Program-made: the position numbers and the translations under genes | In this document: piece by piece, positions 1,100 to 10,418 of the stretch | Layout of the letters: the number at the start of each line of letters is the position of its first letter | Numbering within the stretch: position 1 is the first letter of the stretch | NCBI RefSeq assembly: GCF_015100155.1 | Contig: NZ_JACKZA010000007.1 | Location: 1-64,000 of the forward strand | Length of the DNA: 64,000 nucleotides | Direction of reading: 5' to 3' | From: Acidithiobacillus sp. HP-2 | GTDB taxonomy: Bacteria > Pseudomonadota > Gammaproteobacteria > Acidithiobacillales > Acidithiobacillaceae | The notes under the pieces: generated by a model | What the model was told of the DNA's origin: nothing | Seen by the model: the letters and a program-made list of their open reading frames with translations, nothing else | Database searches by the model: none

Positions 1100-2281
1100 T
1101 TAGGGCTTGATGTCGCGCCCCAAGCCATATTTGAGGCGGCGCGCAGGCAGATACCAGAACAAACCATCCAGCAGCATCAGGCAGCCTGCAGCAATCAGAA
1201 TATAATCGGTAAAGCTGTAGGGTGTTGCACCCAGTATTTTGTGCAGGGCCAGGCCCAGACCGATAAATGCCACACCGGTGCGGATCAGCGATAACCCGGT
1301 TCGGGCACGCGCGTAGGAGGCACGGTGACTGGCGGCAATGGTGCGCTGAGCCGCGAGCATATTACGCTCGCGGGCCAGATGGGTGCGCTCCTTGCTGGCC
1401 GGTACCGGGCGCAAAATCGAACAGTAACGGGGAATGGCTGCAGCCAGTCTGGCCAGGGCACTGGCATCTTCTGCCTCAACCGGCGCTTCGGGCAGGTGAT
1501 AGCGATCGGTAAAGCGCACGTTCTCGGTGGTGATATCAATCAAAGCACTTTGGCAGGGTAAATCCATGCGGCTGCCACGCACTTTCAGGTAATCAAACAA
1601 GCCAATCAGTGCCAGGACAATCCCGACCAACAAAATCAACAGATGATAGGATGAGAGGTCGTTGTGGGTGACTTTGGTCAGCACGTTGGCGAGCGCCACC
1701 ATGGCAAGCCCCCAGCGCAGCAACTTCATGGCCGTCCGAGCGCGGGCATGGGCCGTGCGATGCGCAGCCAGCTTGGTGCGCCAGTGCGCCATGGTGTTGC
1801 GCCAATAGGCCAGGCCCGTGCGCTCAATGCCAATGAGCAAGGGCGCCTCAGCATGCTTGTAGTCCTGTATGTACCAGCGTATGTCTTCTTTGAGCGCGAC
1901 ACGAAATTCGTAATGATGGGCCGGGACCAGGTCCTGAACCCGGGCACGCATACTCGGGTTGTTCGGGTCAGCCGCAGCGATAATGACCGTGTCCCCCATC
2001 TGCCGGATCGGAAACCACTCTCCGGCGCGCAAAACCTTGGCATCCAGGCCGGAAAACAGCTGTGGTACGGGCAGGCGTTCATCATATTGCGTGAAAGCGC
2101 AGTCATAATGCCGGGCTAGCGCGTCCAGCAAGGCGCAGCGCGTCATTGCCAATTCCTTCAATAAGATGCGTTCGGCGTCGATACCACGCTTGGCGGCACT
2201 ACGTAGTGCTGACTGGAGCAGGGTTTCACTCAGAATGCCCTGCTCAACCAGGGGATAATAGGGCGATATTTCAGTGTTCAT
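1100..2281 (-). CDS. MshEN-like domain plus two DUF202-like membrane modules
   Basis: This 393-residue protein starts at an ATG (2281) that overlaps the upstream gene by 11 bases. Residues about 8-125 (PLVEQGILSETLLQSALR..., then GEWFPIRQMGDTVIIAAADPNNPSMRARVQDL) resemble the N-terminal domain of GspE/PilB/MshE ATPases, which binds c-di-GMP in MshE; no ATPase follows. The rest holds two DUF202-like modules, each with RT heptads and two or three membrane helices (near 185-235 and 340-385) and ending in the repeated pattern GLFxYL. The last module carries RTGLSLIRTGVAFIGLG, the DUF202 signature. Function is unknown; a membrane sensor or scaffold is inferred. It is presumably co-translated with the gene at 2271-3821, of which it looks like a paralogue. 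Confidence 0.7.
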   Translation of the reverse strand: MNTEISPYYPLVEQGILSETLLQSALRSAAKRGIDAERILLKELAMTRCALLDALARHYDCAFTQYDERLPVPQLFSGLDAKVLRAGEWFPIRQMGDTVIIAAADPNNPSMRARVQDLVPAHHYEFRVALKEDIRWYIQDYKHAEAPLLIGIERTGLAYWRNTMAHWRTKLAAHRTAHARARTAMKLLRWGLAMVALANVLTKVTHNDLSSYHLLILLVGIVLALIGLFDYLKVRGSRMDLPCQSALIDITTENVRFTDRYHLPEAPVEAEDASALARLAAAIPRYCSILRPVPASKERTHLARERNMLAAQRTIAASHRASYARARTGLSLIRTGVAFIGLGLALHKILGATPYSFTDYILIAAGCLMLLDGLFWYLPARRLKYGLGRDIKP

Positions 2282-3821
2282 GTGGATAATGGCTGCGCTT
2301 CCAGGCGCTTTTCGGTTGACTGTAATCGGCATCGGCGATTTCAAAACTACCGTCGATAAGTGGTGAACTGCGCTTGACCCGTTCTGCCGGCAGATACCAG
2401 CGCAGGCCATCGACAATGAGGTACAGACCAATGATCACCAACACGGCATCAAAAACTGTCCAGAGGATGTCTACATGGCCCGTAAATTCGAAATAAATGT
2501 AGAGCCCGGCGCCCACCGTCATGATGCTGAAGCCGGTGCGGATGAAAGCCATGCCGGTGCGCGCCCGGGCCATGACCGTCCGCAGCCGCGACATGACGTT
2601 GCGTTTGTCCGCAAGGGTGGTGCGCTCCAGAGCCAGGCCGGTAGTTGCAAATACTCCTGGGCGCGACTGCCCGGCATTGGCCTCCACTACCGGATCCATT
2701 TTGTGGGTATAAAGGCATAAGGAGGGAAAAATGCGGTCCCAAGGCCCGCGTTTACCGTGGGCATTACTTACCGCTTCCAGCGCACGATTGGCGGCATTCC
2801 GCCCGGGATGGTACCAGAGAAAACCCTCCACCAGCATGAAAAGACCAATCGCAATCAGACTCCAGTCAAAAATCGACCAGGGACCGGCAGGGAATTTGCG
2901 GATGAAGCCAATGCCGATGGCTGCAAAAGCCACACCCGTCCGGGCAAAGGCGAGTCCCGTCCGCGCCTTGGCCATCATCGTCCGCAGATAAGCCAGAATG
3001 GTGCGTTCCTCAGCGAGATTCGTCCGGTCATTCGCCAGGAAACGCCGCCTTTCGACTGGAGAAAGCGCATCCCAGGCCGCGCGCAACCCGGCAGCACCTG
3101 CAACCACCGGACTGCGTCGAAATGCCATCTGCCCGCCCGGATCGATCACATTCAGGGCTGAATAGTTTTCGGGAACCGCGTAGGGGAGATAGGTTTTGAT
3201 GGCGCGCGATTCCCGACGCGCCGGCAGATACCAGAGCAGGCCGTCAATCATGGCCAGAATCCCGAAAACCAGGAGTGGGATTTCAAAAAACAACCAGGCC
3301 CCACCACCAAATAAGCGCAAAAAAGCGACACCAATACTGGTCAACGCGACTCCCGTACGTGCCAGGGCAAGCCCGGTGCGGCTGCGCGCAAAACGGGTCC
3401 GTTGCGCGGAGTAGCGGGTGCGTTCTCCGGCCAGATAGGTACGGACTTTAGCCAGGGGTGTACGCCCGCCATAAACGGGAAAATCGTCATTCAGATCGGC
3501 GCTGTTTTCAATCAGACGAATGAGGTCGGGGCGCGTAGCCACCCTGAGAGTAAGGTTTTCGACACCAAGGGTTTGCCGGATATGCGCCAGCAAAGCGGGA
3601 TCATCCGGCGTACAGGCTATGACTTCGGCGCTTTCCGCCGTCCAGGCCACAGGCAACCATAACTCGTTTCTGAGCGTGTCCACGTCGAGTCGGCGGAGAA
3701 TTGCCTGCGATGCAACCAGCCCCTCGTCGTATTCGGCTACAGGACAACCATAGCGGTCCTTCAAGTCATCAATCAGTTTCTCTTTAGGCAATGCGTCTAT
3801 CGTAATACCCCAAATGAACAA
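2271..3821 (-). CDS. MshEN-like domain plus three DUF202 membrane modules
   Basis: A 516-residue membrane protein. Residues about 10-105 (ELWLPVAWTAESAEVIACTP, then ATRPDLIRLI) look like a shortened GspE/MshE N-terminal domain. Three DUF202 modules follow at about 120-203, 262-341 and 397-480. Each begins with four to five RTxxxxx heptads (for example RTRYSAQ RTRFARS RTGLALA), runs into GVAF or similar, and has further membrane helices ending in DGLxWYLP or EGFLWYHP. Normal DUF202 proteins (YidH) have one module and about 110 residues. The start used is TTG at 3821, the first possible after an in-frame stop; the N-terminal region that the partner protein has before CALLDALARHYD is missing, so the start could be wrong or the 5' end damaged. 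Function unknown. Confidence 0.7.
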   Translation of the reverse strand: MFIWGITIDALPKEKLIDDLKDRYGCPVAEYDEGLVASQAILRRLDVDTLRNELWLPVAWTAESAEVIACTPDDPALLAHIRQTLGVENLTLRVATRPDLIRLIENSADLNDDFPVYGGRTPLAKVRTYLAGERTRYSAQRTRFARSRTGLALARTGVALTSIGVAFLRLFGGGAWLFFEIPLLVFGILAMIDGLLWYLPARRESRAIKTYLPYAVPENYSALNVIDPGGQMAFRRSPVVAGAAGLRAAWDALSPVERRRFLANDRTNLAEERTILAYLRTMMAKARTGLAFARTGVAFAAIGIGFIRKFPAGPWSIFDWSLIAIGLFMLVEGFLWYHPGRNAANRALEAVSNAHGKRGPWDRIFPSLCLYTHKMDPVVEANAGQSRPGVFATTGLALERTTLADKRNVMSRLRTVMARARTGMAFIRTGFSIMTVGAGLYIYFEFTGHVDILWTVFDAVLVIIGLYLIVDGLRWYLPAERVKRSSPLIDGSFEIADADYSQPKSAWKRSHYPHEH

Positions 3822-3977
3822 CCATCAGCAGCTCAGTGCTCACTGCACTGCGCAGACACATTCCTGCGCAGATATGCAGATGCAAACCGCCTATTATAAA
3901 CAAATCGCGGCAGCAGTGACCAGCCGTAGTCGCGGGCAATAAAATTTCTGGATAGATAGATTATGAATTGATCCATT

Positions 3978-4046: not shown

Positions 4047-4565
4047 TCAGGGCTTGATATAGCTGAAGCCGGCATGCTCCAGCTGCATGATGCGGACGAT
4101 TCCTGCCGGCACAATAACCACAGAGTGATCCAGCTTGGGAAGATGGCCAGTTTTCTTCTTGAACTCTTCCATGCTGTTATGGCACACATCGAACTCCACC
4201 CCCTCAGCATTAATCGCGGCAATGCGACTCGCCACCGGGCTGTTGGGAAGATACATTTTGATGCCCGGCCCAAATGCCACGACAACAATCTGAACCTTTT
4301 CCTGACCAAAATAATTGAGCAGGTTTTGCGCATTATTCAAAGTAAGATTCCAGCGGGCCGGATTATCCTGACTGACCTGGATCACCACATGATGCTCGGC
4401 AAAAGGCAAGTCATGTATAAAAGCAGGGTGATTAAAATGAAAATCATGGAGCATCGAAACATTGGCTGAATCGACATTGGCCGAAGCAGTGGCCATGCCC
4501 AACATGCCCATCACCGGCAAAACGCTGGCCAATACGGCCACCTTCAAAAAGCTCTTCAATAACAT
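4047..4565 (-). CDS. Secreted DsrE/DsrF-like protein
   Basis: The 172-residue product has a signal peptide (LLKSFLKVAVLASVLPVMGML...ASA) and then a DsrE-like fold: HVVIQVSQDNPARWNLTLNN (about 78-97), KVQIVVVAFGPGIKMYL, and GVEFDVCHNSM with the single conserved cysteine. Related exported proteins occur in many sulfur-oxidising bacteria, but cytoplasmic DsrE sulfur carriers are the characterised ones, so a sulfur-transfer role is inferred only. The start is set at the ATG at 4565, six bases after AGGAG; two nearby upstream starts (4571, 4598) are less well placed. It follows the porin by 22 bases and shares its terminator. Confidence 0.8.
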   Translation of the reverse strand: MLLKSFLKVAVLASVLPVMGMLGMATASANVDSANVSMLHDFHFNHPAFIHDLPFAEHHVVIQVSQDNPARWNLTLNNAQNLLNYFGQEKVQIVVVAFGPGIKMYLPNSPVASRIAAINAEGVEFDVCHNSMEEFKKKTGHLPKLDHSVVIVPAGIVRIMQLEHAGFSYIKP

Positions 4566-4587
4566 CACCATCTCCTCGTTATCTTCA

Positions 4588-5913
4588 TCAAAAGGCAATC
4601 ATCGCCTGCATGGCAAATTCATTATCCACGGCATCGGAAATACTATTCGCAACAGGATTAGGCTGATGCGGTACACCCAGCGTCCGGAAGTAGTAACCGG
4701 CCATGATTTTGGTCAGTGGCGTGAAGTGATACTGCAGACCAATGGCCCAGGTTTTGAATATGCGTTGCTGTGCCGGATCATTCGGCAAGCGGTCGTAATA
4801 GTCATAACGTAAATTCGCTTCAATATGCCTGGTCAAAAACAAGCCGCCTTCCAGCATGTAACCATTGGCCGTGTTCTGGCTGCCGGGATAAAGTTGGGTG
4901 TTGGTCAGTGGCGCAGCCAGACCAGGGGCGCTGCTGAATGCCGAAGCTGCCGATATCCAGCCGGTACCACGCATATACTGGAAGCGGAATTGCCGGCCCC
5001 ATTGGTGCATATAGCCTTGCAAATACTGCACATCCACGCCGTAGCGATTCATACTGTAACTGGCGTCATTCAATTCAGGACTGGCATGCTGATACCAGAT
5101 ACCCGCCTGCACATCGCTACGGAAGGGTCCTTTCCCCCCGAATATATAAGCTTCCTGCAGACGCGCAGCATAAAGGGGACTGCTCGATTGGTTACCGGCA
5201 GCCACGGTTCCAAACATTCCGATCATGGCGCCATAGGTAAATTCCCAATGACCGTTACGGAACCAGTCAAAAGCCATGATGCCTGGATAGCGGAAGGCAT
5301 TAACACCCAGAGTCTGTTGACCATTAATCAAATAGGCGTTCAGGTCAGGATTGATTTTGTAAGGATTGCTGGAGTTATACATTGGTTGCTGCATCAATTG
5401 CCCAATCATTGTCGATGACAACACAAAGTTATAACTCATAAATCCTTGCATGGCTCCTTCGGCGCTTGGTGCACGAATAAGACCTGCTTCAATTCTGGCC
5501 CCTGGAATATAACTGAAGGTAAAATGCCCATCAATGAGGCCAGGTTGATAACCGCCACGCACACGCGTGAAACCATTATCACCAAACTCCCCACCAAAAA
5601 AATAGGAAATATGCTTGTTCAGGTTTCCGCGAAACATGATTCGCGCCCGCAGAATATTAGCGGTAGTGCTTTGGGAAAATCCTGGAGCTATGAGATCAAT
5701 ATGCGGAATCTGATTTTTTTCAAGGCTGTCTTCCTGGCCGGATTGTGCATATAAACTCGGCTCAATAAATCCCGAAACACCAAATAACGGGGCTTTGGCA
5801 GGAGAAGTTCCCTGCAACTCGAACCAGTTGGCGGCATGGGCTAGCGGGGATAACCCAAGCATGGCTGCTGCGACAATAAGTGTATTTCTGGAAATTTTAT
5901 GGCCGTGATACAT
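4588..5913 (-). CDS. Outer-membrane porin, beta-barrel
   Basis: A 441-residue outer-membrane protein. It has a signal peptide (NTLIVAAAMLGLSPLAHA), then alternating beta-strand patterns rich in aromatic girdle residues (HISYFFGGEFGDNGF, RYDYYDRL) and ends in a C-terminal phenylalanine (QAMIAF), the barrel-assembly signal. Overall it resembles the phosphate-selective porin O/P or carbohydrate-porin type, but the solute cannot be told. The start is the ATG at 5913, eight bases after GAGG; a GTG nine bases upstream is the alternative. It is first in a two-gene operon with the DsrE-like protein. The upstream 170 bases are AT-rich and contain a 7-bp inverted repeat (CCACAAT...ATTGTGG, 6031-6057) of unknown meaning. 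Confidence 0.82.
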   Translation of the reverse strand: MYHGHKISRNTLIVAAAMLGLSPLAHAANWFELQGTSPAKAPLFGVSGFIEPSLYAQSGQEDSLEKNQIPHIDLIAPGFSQSTTANILRARIMFRGNLNKHISYFFGGEFGDNGFTRVRGGYQPGLIDGHFTFSYIPGARIEAGLIRAPSAEGAMQGFMSYNFVLSSTMIGQLMQQPMYNSSNPYKINPDLNAYLINGQQTLGVNAFRYPGIMAFDWFRNGHWEFTYGAMIGMFGTVAAGNQSSSPLYAARLQEAYIFGGKGPFRSDVQAGIWYQHASPELNDASYSMNRYGVDVQYLQGYMHQWGRQFRFQYMRGTGWISAASAFSSAPGLAAPLTNTQLYPGSQNTANGYMLEGGLFLTRHIEANLRYDYYDRLPNDPAQQRIFKTWAIGLQYHFTPLTKIMAGYYFRTLGVPHQPNPVANSISDAVDNEFAMQAMIAF

Positions 5914-6084
5914 GTTTATCACCTCGCGATGTTTTGGCTGAATATTTATATTTTGAAATAAACGACGACCAACAACGTGGGAATGCCGTTGACCTTCGCC
6001 TTACGGACAAAAAGGTTAGCAATGTTCGTGCCACAATGAAACCCATGCTTATTGTGGAAGAGGATTCGCCAATGCGGACAAAAT

Positions 6085-7546: not shown

Positions 7547-10219
7547 TTAATGCTGGGTACAATGGCCACCCTTCATCTCCCTCTCTTCGACATAGACCAA
7601 ACTACGCAGCTCCTTAATCATCTTATTGTTTTCACACTCAAGAACTGAGCCCAGATAGAGAGCATTGACCATATCTCCGTTATCCAGCGCCAGTTTTGAC
7701 TGGCGTGCCAGATGATGTATTTTTTCATGGCGCTGCAAAATCTGTAAAAACTCGGACTGATCGCCAAAACGCAAGGATCCGTCCCCCTTCAGCCAGCGTC
7801 CAAGATGGCATTTTTCTTCGGCATCCTGTTCCAATACATGTTGCGGAATGGATTTTTGTTCGCGCATGGCCAGCAGAAAATTCTCGGTCCGTTGTCCATG
7901 ACCTTCCAGCAAAGTCGGCAAAATATCAATGGAAGAATGGCTGAGCATACTCAAATTCAGACTTTTGAACTGCCGCAGCCAAAGGGGAATATCTTCTCCG
8001 GGCATGGGCTTGGCAAACAGATATCCCTGCAAGTGACCACAACCCATTTTCGCCAGTAATTTGGCATGGGCTTCTGTTTCCACCCCTTCCGCAATCACAT
8101 CCAGACCCAACATACGACTGGCAGTAATCACAGCTGCCACAATAGCCAGATCCTTGGGGTCGTTGATCATGTCGCGGACAAAGCTTTGATCCAGCTTGAC
8201 GGACTGGGCGGGGAGCTGCTGAAGATAGGTCAAAGAAGCGTTCCCCGTTCCAAAGTCATCCAGCGCCACGCGCACACCCAAATCATTGCAGGCCGCCAGT
8301 CGCTCCTGGGCATGAATGAGATCCTTAAGTGGTGCTGATTCGGTAATTTCGATTTCGATCTGCTCAGCAGGTAAACCGGGATATTTTCGTAGAGCTTTTT
8401 CCAGATCGTCCAGGAAACGTGCATCCAGTAAATGATGGGCACTGATATTAACGGAAACACGCAAGGCAAGTCCTTGTTGCTGCCAGATTTGACCTTGCCG
8501 AAAAGCGGCATCCATCACAAAAATACCCACGTCCCGGGCATAACGATGATGATCCAGACCGGCCCAGAAAGCTGCGGGACCCAGCAAACCCCGTTCAGGA
8601 TCAAGAATCCGAAGCAAAGACTCAACCCCCGATACGCCACCAAAACTGTTGACGATTGGCTGGTAATGCAACACCAACTGATGATTTTTAAGTCCCCTTT
8701 CGAGCAGCAGTCGCATATTGGCCGCATTTTGTGCGGCCTCATCCAGAGTCAGACTGTACAGACTGAGCTGATCCCCTCCCTGTTTTTTTGCCGCATATAA
8801 TGCCATATCCGCATGCGCCAGAAGGGTTTCTACGGATACTTCATCCAGAGGATATAACGTCACGCCCAGACTGGCACTCACATGAATCCACTCACCATCG
8901 ATTTCCACAGGCGTACGCACGGCTTCCAAAATCCGTCCACAAATGAAGTCCAGGTCGTCTATGGAACCCAGCGACGGAAAAAGCAGACCGAATTCGTCCC
9001 CTCCCAATCTTCCCAAGGTGTCGCCAGAACGCAAGCATTGACGAATCCGCTGGGTGACAGAAAGCAGCAAACGATCACCGGCGCCATGTCCAAAACGGTC
9101 ATTGACCGGCTTGAAAGCATCCAGATCCAGCAGCACTACCCCGAGTAAAGTCTCGTCTCGACTGGCCTGCCGGCGGGCGATTTCCAGGCGATCCATAAAT
9201 AAAAGACGGTTGGGAACCTGAGTCAAGGGATCCCGGAGCATGCGATTACGTAATTGCAAAACGATCTCGCCGAGATGGGCAAACGCCTCAAAATAATCTG
9301 ACCCGATTCTTTTAAAATATCCTTTTGCCCGAGCGCCAATAAAACCTAAACCTTGCAAGTCACCCGACGAAAAAGGCAGAAACACCATTTCCTGAACGCG
9401 GGGTCGCAATTTCCGGATCCATTCCGGTGCTGCAGGATCATCACTTGAGTAAACCAGGACCTGGTTTTGTTGTAAGGCCTGCCAACAGGGATCTTCTGCA
9501 GAATAAGGTAGATAGGGCATGGACAAGCGCAAACCGGCCGAAGCTTCCAGAGTTAATAGATCATTGACTCTACTGGAGCACAGAAAATAGCCAGCCAGGG
9601 TGATATAACGACTTTTACGCGGCAAGCGCTCACATAACACCTGTAAAAGACTGGTGTTATCGGTATCTTTTTCAATACGGGTGCTTGCCAGGGTATCCAG
9701 CAACACATCAAAAACGGCGCTTCGCTCACCATCCGTTTCCCGCGCTGCCTGGGCGTAGCCGCTTAACTGACTCATCAAGTCACCCATCAGCAGGCTGATG
9801 AGGATTTGTCCCAGACGCGAATGGTGTTCGGTTGGGACATGCTTTTCCAAAATCGGCTGCCAATGCCGCCAGTAGATGGTGTAGCCACCGGCCAGCCAGG
9901 CAGGATCAATGCCTAAATGGTGATGCTTGGCACCCAGTTGCTGCATGGCAGTCTGCCAGGAAGGGTTCAGTTGGTTGTTCAGAAGATCATATCCATGCTC
10001 CGCCTGACGCTGAACCAGGGCTTCAATCTGTGCTTCTGAAAAGTTTCTGAAAGCTGCGGCGGTAGCCGGATGTGAAAACAGATAGTTATAAAAATCCCGG
10101 GCCAGCTGTTCTGCACTTTGGGCAAATAAACCCCAATACTGGTCTAATAAAATGAAATCTTCACGATCCAATCCCAAAAAACTGACCAGATTATCTGAAC
10201 TTTTAAAGGAGCTATTCAT
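7547..10219 (-). CDS. Globin-coupled GAF-GGDEF-EAL-CZB c-di-GMP enzyme
   Basis: An 890-residue cytoplasmic signalling protein with five domains. Residues about 15-130 are a globin-sensor domain with a HHHLGIDPAW segment supplying the likely haem-proximal histidine (99-101). About 170-325 resembles a GAF domain. The GGDEF domain (about 330-490) keeps GGDEF (406-410) and an inhibitory RSGD site five residues before it. The EAL domain (about 505-755) has ESLLR for EALLR, so the metal-binding Glu remains, plus SVNISA, ITES, DDFGTG and IAEGVET. The last about 110 residues match the zinc-binding CZB domain: Cys in CHLGRWL and HEKIHH. Both catalytic activities are plausible. The start overlaps the preceding small gene by eight bases (ATGAATAG), implying coupled translation; a start at 10264 is possible. 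Confidence 0.88.
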   Translation of the reverse strand: MNSSFKSSDNLVSFLGLDREDFILLDQYWGLFAQSAEQLARDFYNYLFSHPATAAAFRNFSEAQIEALVQRQAEHGYDLLNNQLNPSWQTAMQQLGAKHHHLGIDPAWLAGGYTIYWRHWQPILEKHVPTEHHSRLGQILISLLMGDLMSQLSGYAQAARETDGERSAVFDVLLDTLASTRIEKDTDNTSLLQVLCERLPRKSRYITLAGYFLCSSRVNDLLTLEASAGLRLSMPYLPYSAEDPCWQALQQNQVLVYSSDDPAAPEWIRKLRPRVQEMVFLPFSSGDLQGLGFIGARAKGYFKRIGSDYFEAFAHLGEIVLQLRNRMLRDPLTQVPNRLLFMDRLEIARRQASRDETLLGVVLLDLDAFKPVNDRFGHGAGDRLLLSVTQRIRQCLRSGDTLGRLGGDEFGLLFPSLGSIDDLDFICGRILEAVRTPVEIDGEWIHVSASLGVTLYPLDEVSVETLLAHADMALYAAKKQGGDQLSLYSLTLDEAAQNAANMRLLLERGLKNHQLVLHYQPIVNSFGGVSGVESLLRILDPERGLLGPAAFWAGLDHHRYARDVGIFVMDAAFRQGQIWQQQGLALRVSVNISAHHLLDARFLDDLEKALRKYPGLPAEQIEIEITESAPLKDLIHAQERLAACNDLGVRVALDDFGTGNASLTYLQQLPAQSVKLDQSFVRDMINDPKDLAIVAAVITASRMLGLDVIAEGVETEAHAKLLAKMGCGHLQGYLFAKPMPGEDIPLWLRQFKSLNLSMLSHSSIDILPTLLEGHGQRTENFLLAMREQKSIPQHVLEQDAEEKCHLGRWLKGDGSLRFGDQSEFLQILQRHEKIHHLARQSKLALDNGDMVNALYLGSVLECENNKMIKELRSLVYVEEREMKGGHCTQH

Positions 10220-10418
10220 CGCTGCAAAAAGCCGTACAACCTCCCTGTTTGGACAGAACCGCATCCAGCACCAGGCTTTCCAGCGTTTCCGTCGGGCTTA
10301 CCCCATAGAAAACACTCAGCTCCTTGAGCATTACCCATGCCCACTCTGAGAGTGCCACTTGCTTTATAAGCGCCGCTTTTTGCCCTACCTGATCATTATC
10401 AGGTTTTGTAGTAGACAT
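10212..10418 (-). CDS. Small hypothetical protein coupled to the c-di-GMP enzyme
   Basis: A 68-residue protein starting at an ATG eight bases after GGAG. The core (LSEWAWVMLKELSVFYGVSPTETLESLVLDAVL) is predicted helical and resembles the helices of ribbon-helix-helix regulators, but no firm family can be named. Its stop codon lies inside the first codons of the globin-GGDEF-EAL gene, so the two are probably one operon and may work together. The C-terminus has two cysteines (GGCTAFCSDE). The 200 bases upstream (10419-10660) are AT-rich with no other gene seen. Confidence 0.6.
   Translation of the reverse strand: MSTTKPDNDQVGQKAALIKQVALSEWAWVMLKELSVFYGVSPTETLESLVLDAVLSKQGGCTAFCSDE

Follow-up and report, generated by a model that had tools for sequence, protein, structure and literature searches.

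To our knowledge, the yeast VTC complex is the only DUF202-type assembly for which a structure exists. The VTC subunits carry DUF202 (PMC7283521), and three copies of Vtc1 combine with one Vtc3 and one Vtc4 to give fifteen transmembrane (TM) helices. The five TM1s enclose a channel, and its lining includes basic residues seven positions apart, such as K24/R31 (PMC9911596). The second described system of relevance is the MshEN domain, whose c-di-GMP receptors have two 24-residue motifs of the form RLGxx..G..LxxxLxxQ. In MshE of V. cholerae, the two motifs (RLG...LxxxLxxQ) lie in MshEN_N, which is the half that binds c-di-GMP, and hold the ligand there; in XpsE, such contact-residue changes abolish binding (PMC5013675).

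The locus studied here brings MshEN heads and DUF202 modules together. In the window (the whole 64,000-nucleotide stretch of the Acidithiobacillus sp. HP-2 contig NZ_JACKZA010000007.1 that was analyzed), two genes on the (-) strand overlap by 11 nt: gene A (2271 to 3800, with its probable start at ATA 3800-3798), encoding a partial MshEN domain and three DUF202 modules, and gene B (1100 to 2281, starting at ATG 2281; 393 aa), encoding a full MshEN fold with its c-di-GMP contacts replaced and two DUF202 modules. Called mechanically, the A open reading frame runs from TTG 3821 to 2271 and has 516 aa. Both proteins matched the Pfam MshEN family (PF05157) above its cut-off, B at 5e-12 over residues 60 to 145 and A at 4.9e-9 over residues 25 to 106. 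By Pfam and Foldseek, the segment in A (3504 to 3749) is MshEN_C only, and residues 1 to 145 of B (1847 to 2281) comprise both MshEN_N and MshEN_C. Foldseek matched the N-terminal domain of B to MshE (5htl; TM-score by target, 0.70) and the N terminus of A to MshEN-type structures. The fold is therefore shared with the MshEN/GspE-N proteins (MshE 5htl, PilB-N, PilF, and XpsE-N), from which A and B differ in having no ATPase, in having lost the c-di-GMP contacts, and, in the case of A, in retaining only the C-terminal half. No P-loop ATPase domain was matched by Pfam after the MshEN domain in A or B, and DUF202 modules are found there instead.

The Pfam DUF202 family (PF02656) matched several stretches of A (1.3e-14; 54.8 bits against a cut-off of 23.4). 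The window's B scored 19.6 bits, below that gathering cut-off, and its orthologue in locus L105 cleared it at 28.9 bits. The five modules can all be aligned with one another, at 33 to 46% identity to the first. The preliminary description had claimed an MshEN-like head without the ATPase, followed by three and two DUF202 modules; Pfam and Foldseek bear out the former, and the module alignment, Pfam (for A and for the L105 B), and AlphaFold bear out the latter. Its claim that both proteins carry a GspE-N head holds fully for B and only for the C-terminal half in A.

The pair is real and far beyond what chance would produce, recurring at about 60 loci with 29 invariant heptad arginines. B directly follows A in all loci examined except L182, a contig-end fragment, and the 3+2 split of the modules was seen in essentially every one; two copies from metagenome-assembled genomes (MAGs; L081 and L082) are disrupted, either by frame changes or because they are fragmented. 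Within the Acidithiobacillaceae, roughly half of the genomes sampled from the genus have the two genes side by side in a constant order, and so do two other genera. A genome-wide scan also recovered the pair in records titled Acidihalobacter, Nitrospirae/Nitrospiraceae, Actinomycetes/Thermoleophilia, and Syntrophobacterales. Matches occurred in 7 of 369 sampled genomes from the window's class, in 27 of 296 from the L105 phylum, in 12 of 299 from the L097 class, and in 9 of 297 from the L099 phylum, the last figure including two single-module relatives (L184 and L185) that are not A. The adjacency of A and B is obligate, and it extends to several distantly related groups. A search for the architecture across Acidithiobacillia had been suggested, and we did find it there, but it is not confined to that class, as the Nitrospirota, actinobacterial, and deltaproteobacterial records attest.

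When the modules of 16 loci were placed in one tree, each of the five proved monophyletic (support, 0.83 to 0.98). Because this holds across groups, the 3+2 plan must be older than the divergence of these lineages' copies, and each position would seem to have had its own ancient role. The duplication proposed from the window alone is thus upheld and placed before the divergence of the groups that hold the pair. Horizontal transfer between phyla may have occurred, and the antiquity of the plan is unaffected either way. Among the open papers found to mention DUF202, no title or abstract dealt with this architecture. The A/B pair is a new conserved arrangement of known modules.

The start of gene A is unusual. 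At 15 loci, drawn from the Acidithiobacillaceae and a second gammaproteobacterial family, the gene appears to begin at a conserved AUA, AUC, or AUU codon, with an SD-like GGAG, GAGG, or GGGG about 7 to 9 nt upstream; in the window the arrangement is GGGG, a 7-nt spacer, and ATA (3798 to 3812, (-) strand). At 8 of the 15, no ATG, GTG, or TTG lies between the in-frame stop (or, for two of them, a point 28 codons upstream) and the ATA/ATC/ATT codon, and the next canonical start is 12 to 48 codons downstream, mostly inside conserved sequence. Single SD matches are modest, since 1.7 to 10% of random sites are equally good, so the argument for a non-AUG start draws on the conserved position of the SD and start codon and not on individual SD matches. 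Loci L077, L093, L144, and L145 have ATG instead. AUU starts are known, as in infC. For the window, we judge ATA 3800-3798 the more likely start over TTG 3821. A TATAAT conserved in the genus (3893 to 3898, (-) strand) is the likely -10 box of the A-B operon. We also inspected the approximately 250 nt that separate A from the DsrE-like gene for the missing MshEN_N of A in another frame; they hold a promoter-like site and no such domain.

The MshEN heads had prompted the suggestion that this membrane system responds to c-di-GMP, with MshEN as the site of binding, but the contact residues proved to be absent in both A and B. B aligns gap-free to the MshE motif region, with the contact residues replaced family-wide and the hydrophobic core kept. 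Among 55 ungapped B sequences, the Gly of the first motif has become Tyr or Phe in 52 and its Gln has become Ala in 50, while the Arg of the second motif has become Glu or Asp in 46 and its Gly has become Glu in 54. The window's B has no RLG/Gln contact residues, and it scores far below the cut-off of the NCBIfam c-di-GMP motif model NF053729 (16.2 bits against 38). The Acidithiobacillus A starts too late to contain the binding half, MshEN_N; in L101 to L104, A has no MshEN at all, and in L101, L102, and L104, B is without MshEN_N. On the other side, the MshEN fold itself was confirmed, and a Protoglobin-GGDEF-EAL-CZB protein, which may be a c-di-GMP enzyme that senses gas and zinc, is encoded 3.7 kb from gene A in the window (7547 to 10264), although a GGDEF-EAL neighbor was seen at only one other examined locus, L078. 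We consider it very improbable that these heads bind c-di-GMP. Judged from the sequences, the fold has been kept and the c-di-GMP site lost. Since B nevertheless keeps a conserved YDER motif (residues 66 to 69) where its MshEN_C begins, a protein-protein role for the heads is more likely.

The DUF202 modules of the pair carry an arginine ladder. Across 60 A and 59 B sequences, a sample that contains close relatives and so holds fewer than 60 independent observations but spans several major bacterial groups, 29 arginines spaced by seven are invariant with a single Lys exception. They are arranged as five ladders, one per module, all on the (-) strand: in A, module 1 (residues 120 to 206; 3204 to 3464) has R120, 127, 134, 141, 148, and 155, module 2 (255 to 345; 2787 to 3059) has R259, 266, 273, 280, 287, and 294, and module 3 (392 to 482; 2376 to 2648) has R400, 407, 414, 421, and 428; in B, module 1 (150 to 236; 1574 to 1834) has R154, 161, 168, 175, 182, and 189, and module 2 (296 to 384; 1130 to 1396) has R299, 306, 313, 320, 327, and 334. 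At A 393, which makes up the thirtieth place, every sequence has Thr. Pooled, the heptad reads R-T-x-L/M-A-x-x, with frequencies of 0.96 for Arg at a, 0.78 for Thr at b, 0.84 for Leu/Met at d, and 0.90 for Ala at e. Outside the ladder, invariant arginines are few in the alignments of 25 to 26 sequences.

AlphaFold models built on alignments of 25 to 26 homologues (mean pLDDT, 78 for A and 77 for B) predicted long helices at A 121 to 171, 255 to 309, and 392 to 445 and at B 157 to 203 and 295 to 350, each followed by a second, so that A has three units of long helix plus TM helix and B has two, with two TM helices per module and ten in total. In every module, a continuous 47- to 56-residue helix of RTxLAxx heptads runs into TM1. 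Hydropathy and the positive-inside rule place four ladder steps in a cytosolic stalk and the last inside TM1, so that each of the five modules has one arginine embedded in TM1. TM2 of four modules carries an invariant Asp/Glu-Gly-x-x-Trp-Tyr at about the same depth as this embedded Arg (D193, E332, and D471 in A; D372 in B), B module 1 being the sole one without an acidic TM2 residue. Acidic partners for the arginines are otherwise few and are unconserved except in A module 2.

These features invite comparison with VTC. DUF202-type modules total five in both, basic TM1 residues are spaced by seven in both, and there is remote sequence similarity: a profile of short canonical DUF202s plus two window modules had Vtc1 entries of the yeast VTC core (Vtc1/Vtc3/Vtc4) as its four best PDB matches (9umg, 8i6v, and 7ytj), at an E value of only 0.014 to 0.03, and in that marginal match a ladder Arg aligned on Vtc1 Arg31. 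The five-module profile alone did not find Vtc1 and gave no meaningful PDB match, nor did the A sequence alone. VTC was absent from the Foldseek matches of the single chains, the membrane halves of which gave only weak helical matches. A and B also differ from VTC in lacking SPX and the TTM polymerase (PF09359), in having the modules fused into two chains, and in an arginine ladder that reaches far into the cytosol.

The obligate pair has exactly five modules, with Arg in what would be the lumen-facing register, as might be expected of a fused two-chain counterpart of the VTC pentamer. By this analogy, and at a probability of roughly 0.4, we propose that A and B form a five-module VTC-like complex with an arginine-lined anion path. 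The two proteins would form one inner-membrane complex at 1:1, contributing three and two modules, respectively, each a long cytoplasmic RTxLAxx helix continuing into TM1 and followed by TM2. The modules would assemble like the TM modules of yeast VTC, with five TM1 helices surrounding a central path, and heptad position a (Arg in 29 of 30 places) would face the lumen, giving stacked arginine rings that could draw in an anion and either conduct or hold it. The MshEN heads, without c-di-GMP binding, would act as protein-interaction or perhaps gating domains, and outside Acidithiobacillia the complex would be tied to a histidine kinase/response regulator pair. Against this proposal stand the marginal Vtc1 match and the searches that did not recover VTC, the two TM helices of A/B modules against three in VTC, the TM2 Asp/Glu of four modules, which could simply neutralize the membrane-embedded Arg, and the lack of a VTC polymerase in the 16 A/B-bearing genomes searched.

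If the pair worked like VTC, polyphosphate would be the obvious cargo, and both the module count and the basic TM1 residues match that complex. PPK1 is encoded in the Acidithiobacillaceae and in an Acidihalobacter MAG. However, a search for PPK1 (PF02503) had no match in 11 of 16 A/B-bearing genomes, some of them incomplete MAGs; the VTC polymerase (PF09359) was found in 0 of the 16, and no polyphosphate gene lies among the neighbors examined. With PPK1 and the VTC polymerase mostly absent, polyphosphate is a poor candidate for a general cargo, and a bacterial polyphosphate translocator seems quite unlikely.

The gene neighborhood outside Acidithiobacillia speaks to a different interpretation, in which A and B would form a signaling or scaffolding stalk, its polar RTxLAxx coiled coil linking the membrane to cytosolic MshEN heads, a histidine kinase, and a response regulator, with no transport involved. 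Neighboring genes were called by simple ORF picking, so single absences mean little. In Nitrospirota, A and B are typically preceded by Usp, TauE, TIGR02186/Alph_Pro_TM, Usp, and Usp and followed by a histidine kinase, a response regulator, and an approximately 850-aa protein carrying PPDK_N and PEP-utilizer domains, in that order. The series A, B, kinase, regulator, and enzyme recurs at several actinobacterial loci; at others there is a histidine kinase-sigma54 activator pair and, upstream, a small Usp-like gene. The approximately 850-aa protein (L105 9600 to 12182, and orthologues after A-B) has no recognized PEP-binding domain and sits beside the kinase and a stand-alone receiver. That the kinase, regulator, and PPDK_N/PEP-utilizer genes follow the pair at many Nitrospirota and actinobacterial loci favors a stalk, as does the precedent of MshEN-type domains that can be pure interaction domains, such as PilB-N, which binds PilZ (7lko, among the Foldseek matches).

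Single-module relatives point the same way. In L184 (1123 to 2175), 12 RT-heptads and a DUF202 TM pair are fused to a response-regulator receiver, and L185 (1048 to 1827) has 22 heptads. Both share with A and B the RTxLAxx helix running into the DUF202 TM pair, and they differ in having one module, in being glutamate-rich, and in having no MshEN. The short single-module DUF202s (PF02656) of the source genome, three of which are encoded consecutively at G000:C4 88542 to 89380 (L003, L005, and L007), align with A and B over the TM1-TM2 core and the last three heptad arginines (RT..ANERT..RT); those compared have about three heptads, whereas each A/B module has five to six, and the A/B modules are divided 3+2 between two genes and accompanied by MshEN heads. 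Against a stalk, the kinase-regulator-enzyme neighbors are missing at Acidithiobacillus loci, conserved acidic partners of the arginines are few, unlike in an ordinary salt-bridged coil, and the TM1-embedded arginine of all five modules is left unexplained. We regard a stalk as nearly as likely as the five-module anion path.

In the Acidithiobacillaceae, the pair adjoins porin-like and DsrE-like genes in two orientations, together with housekeeping genes. At 4047 to 5922 in the window, the DsrE-like gene (a weak Pfam match) and the porin-like gene overlap; both are linked to A-B across the family while their orientation flips, and the porin-like gene had no Pfam, NCBIfam, or PDB assignment. 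Because of this flipping, and because MarC, AspS, NudB-like, and NadA are housekeeping, we set aside the Acidithiobacillus neighbors as a functional clue. Directly after gene B is a putative Uma2-family endonuclease gene (400 to 984), which was seen close to the pair at just two more of the loci examined. Anti-phage defense was considered and dropped, with no PADLOC match. As for what an anion path might carry, the neighboring anion exporter TauE in Nitrospirota and the DsrE-like and porin neighbors in Acidithiobacillus allow a guess at a small sulfur oxyanion. The most extended form of the five-module proposal is an undescribed, widespread two-subunit bacterial complex, a 3+2 DUF202 pseudo-pentamer in which the five long helices would form a tube of six stacked rings (29 Arg and 1 Thr) and, controlled by a two-component system, would lead an anion out of the cytosol into or across the membrane; taken as a whole, it is more doubtful.

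The A/B pair shows that MshEN can be reused without c-di-GMP, which calls for caution where the domain is annotated without reference to its motifs, and gene A is a conserved candidate for translation starts at AUA, AUC, and AUU. The eukaryotic relatives of DUF202 form the VTC polyphosphate channel, while bacterial DUF202 proteins have no assigned function. An obligate five-module pair with 29 fixed arginines makes the idea of a pentameric anion path for bacterial DUF202 directly testable.
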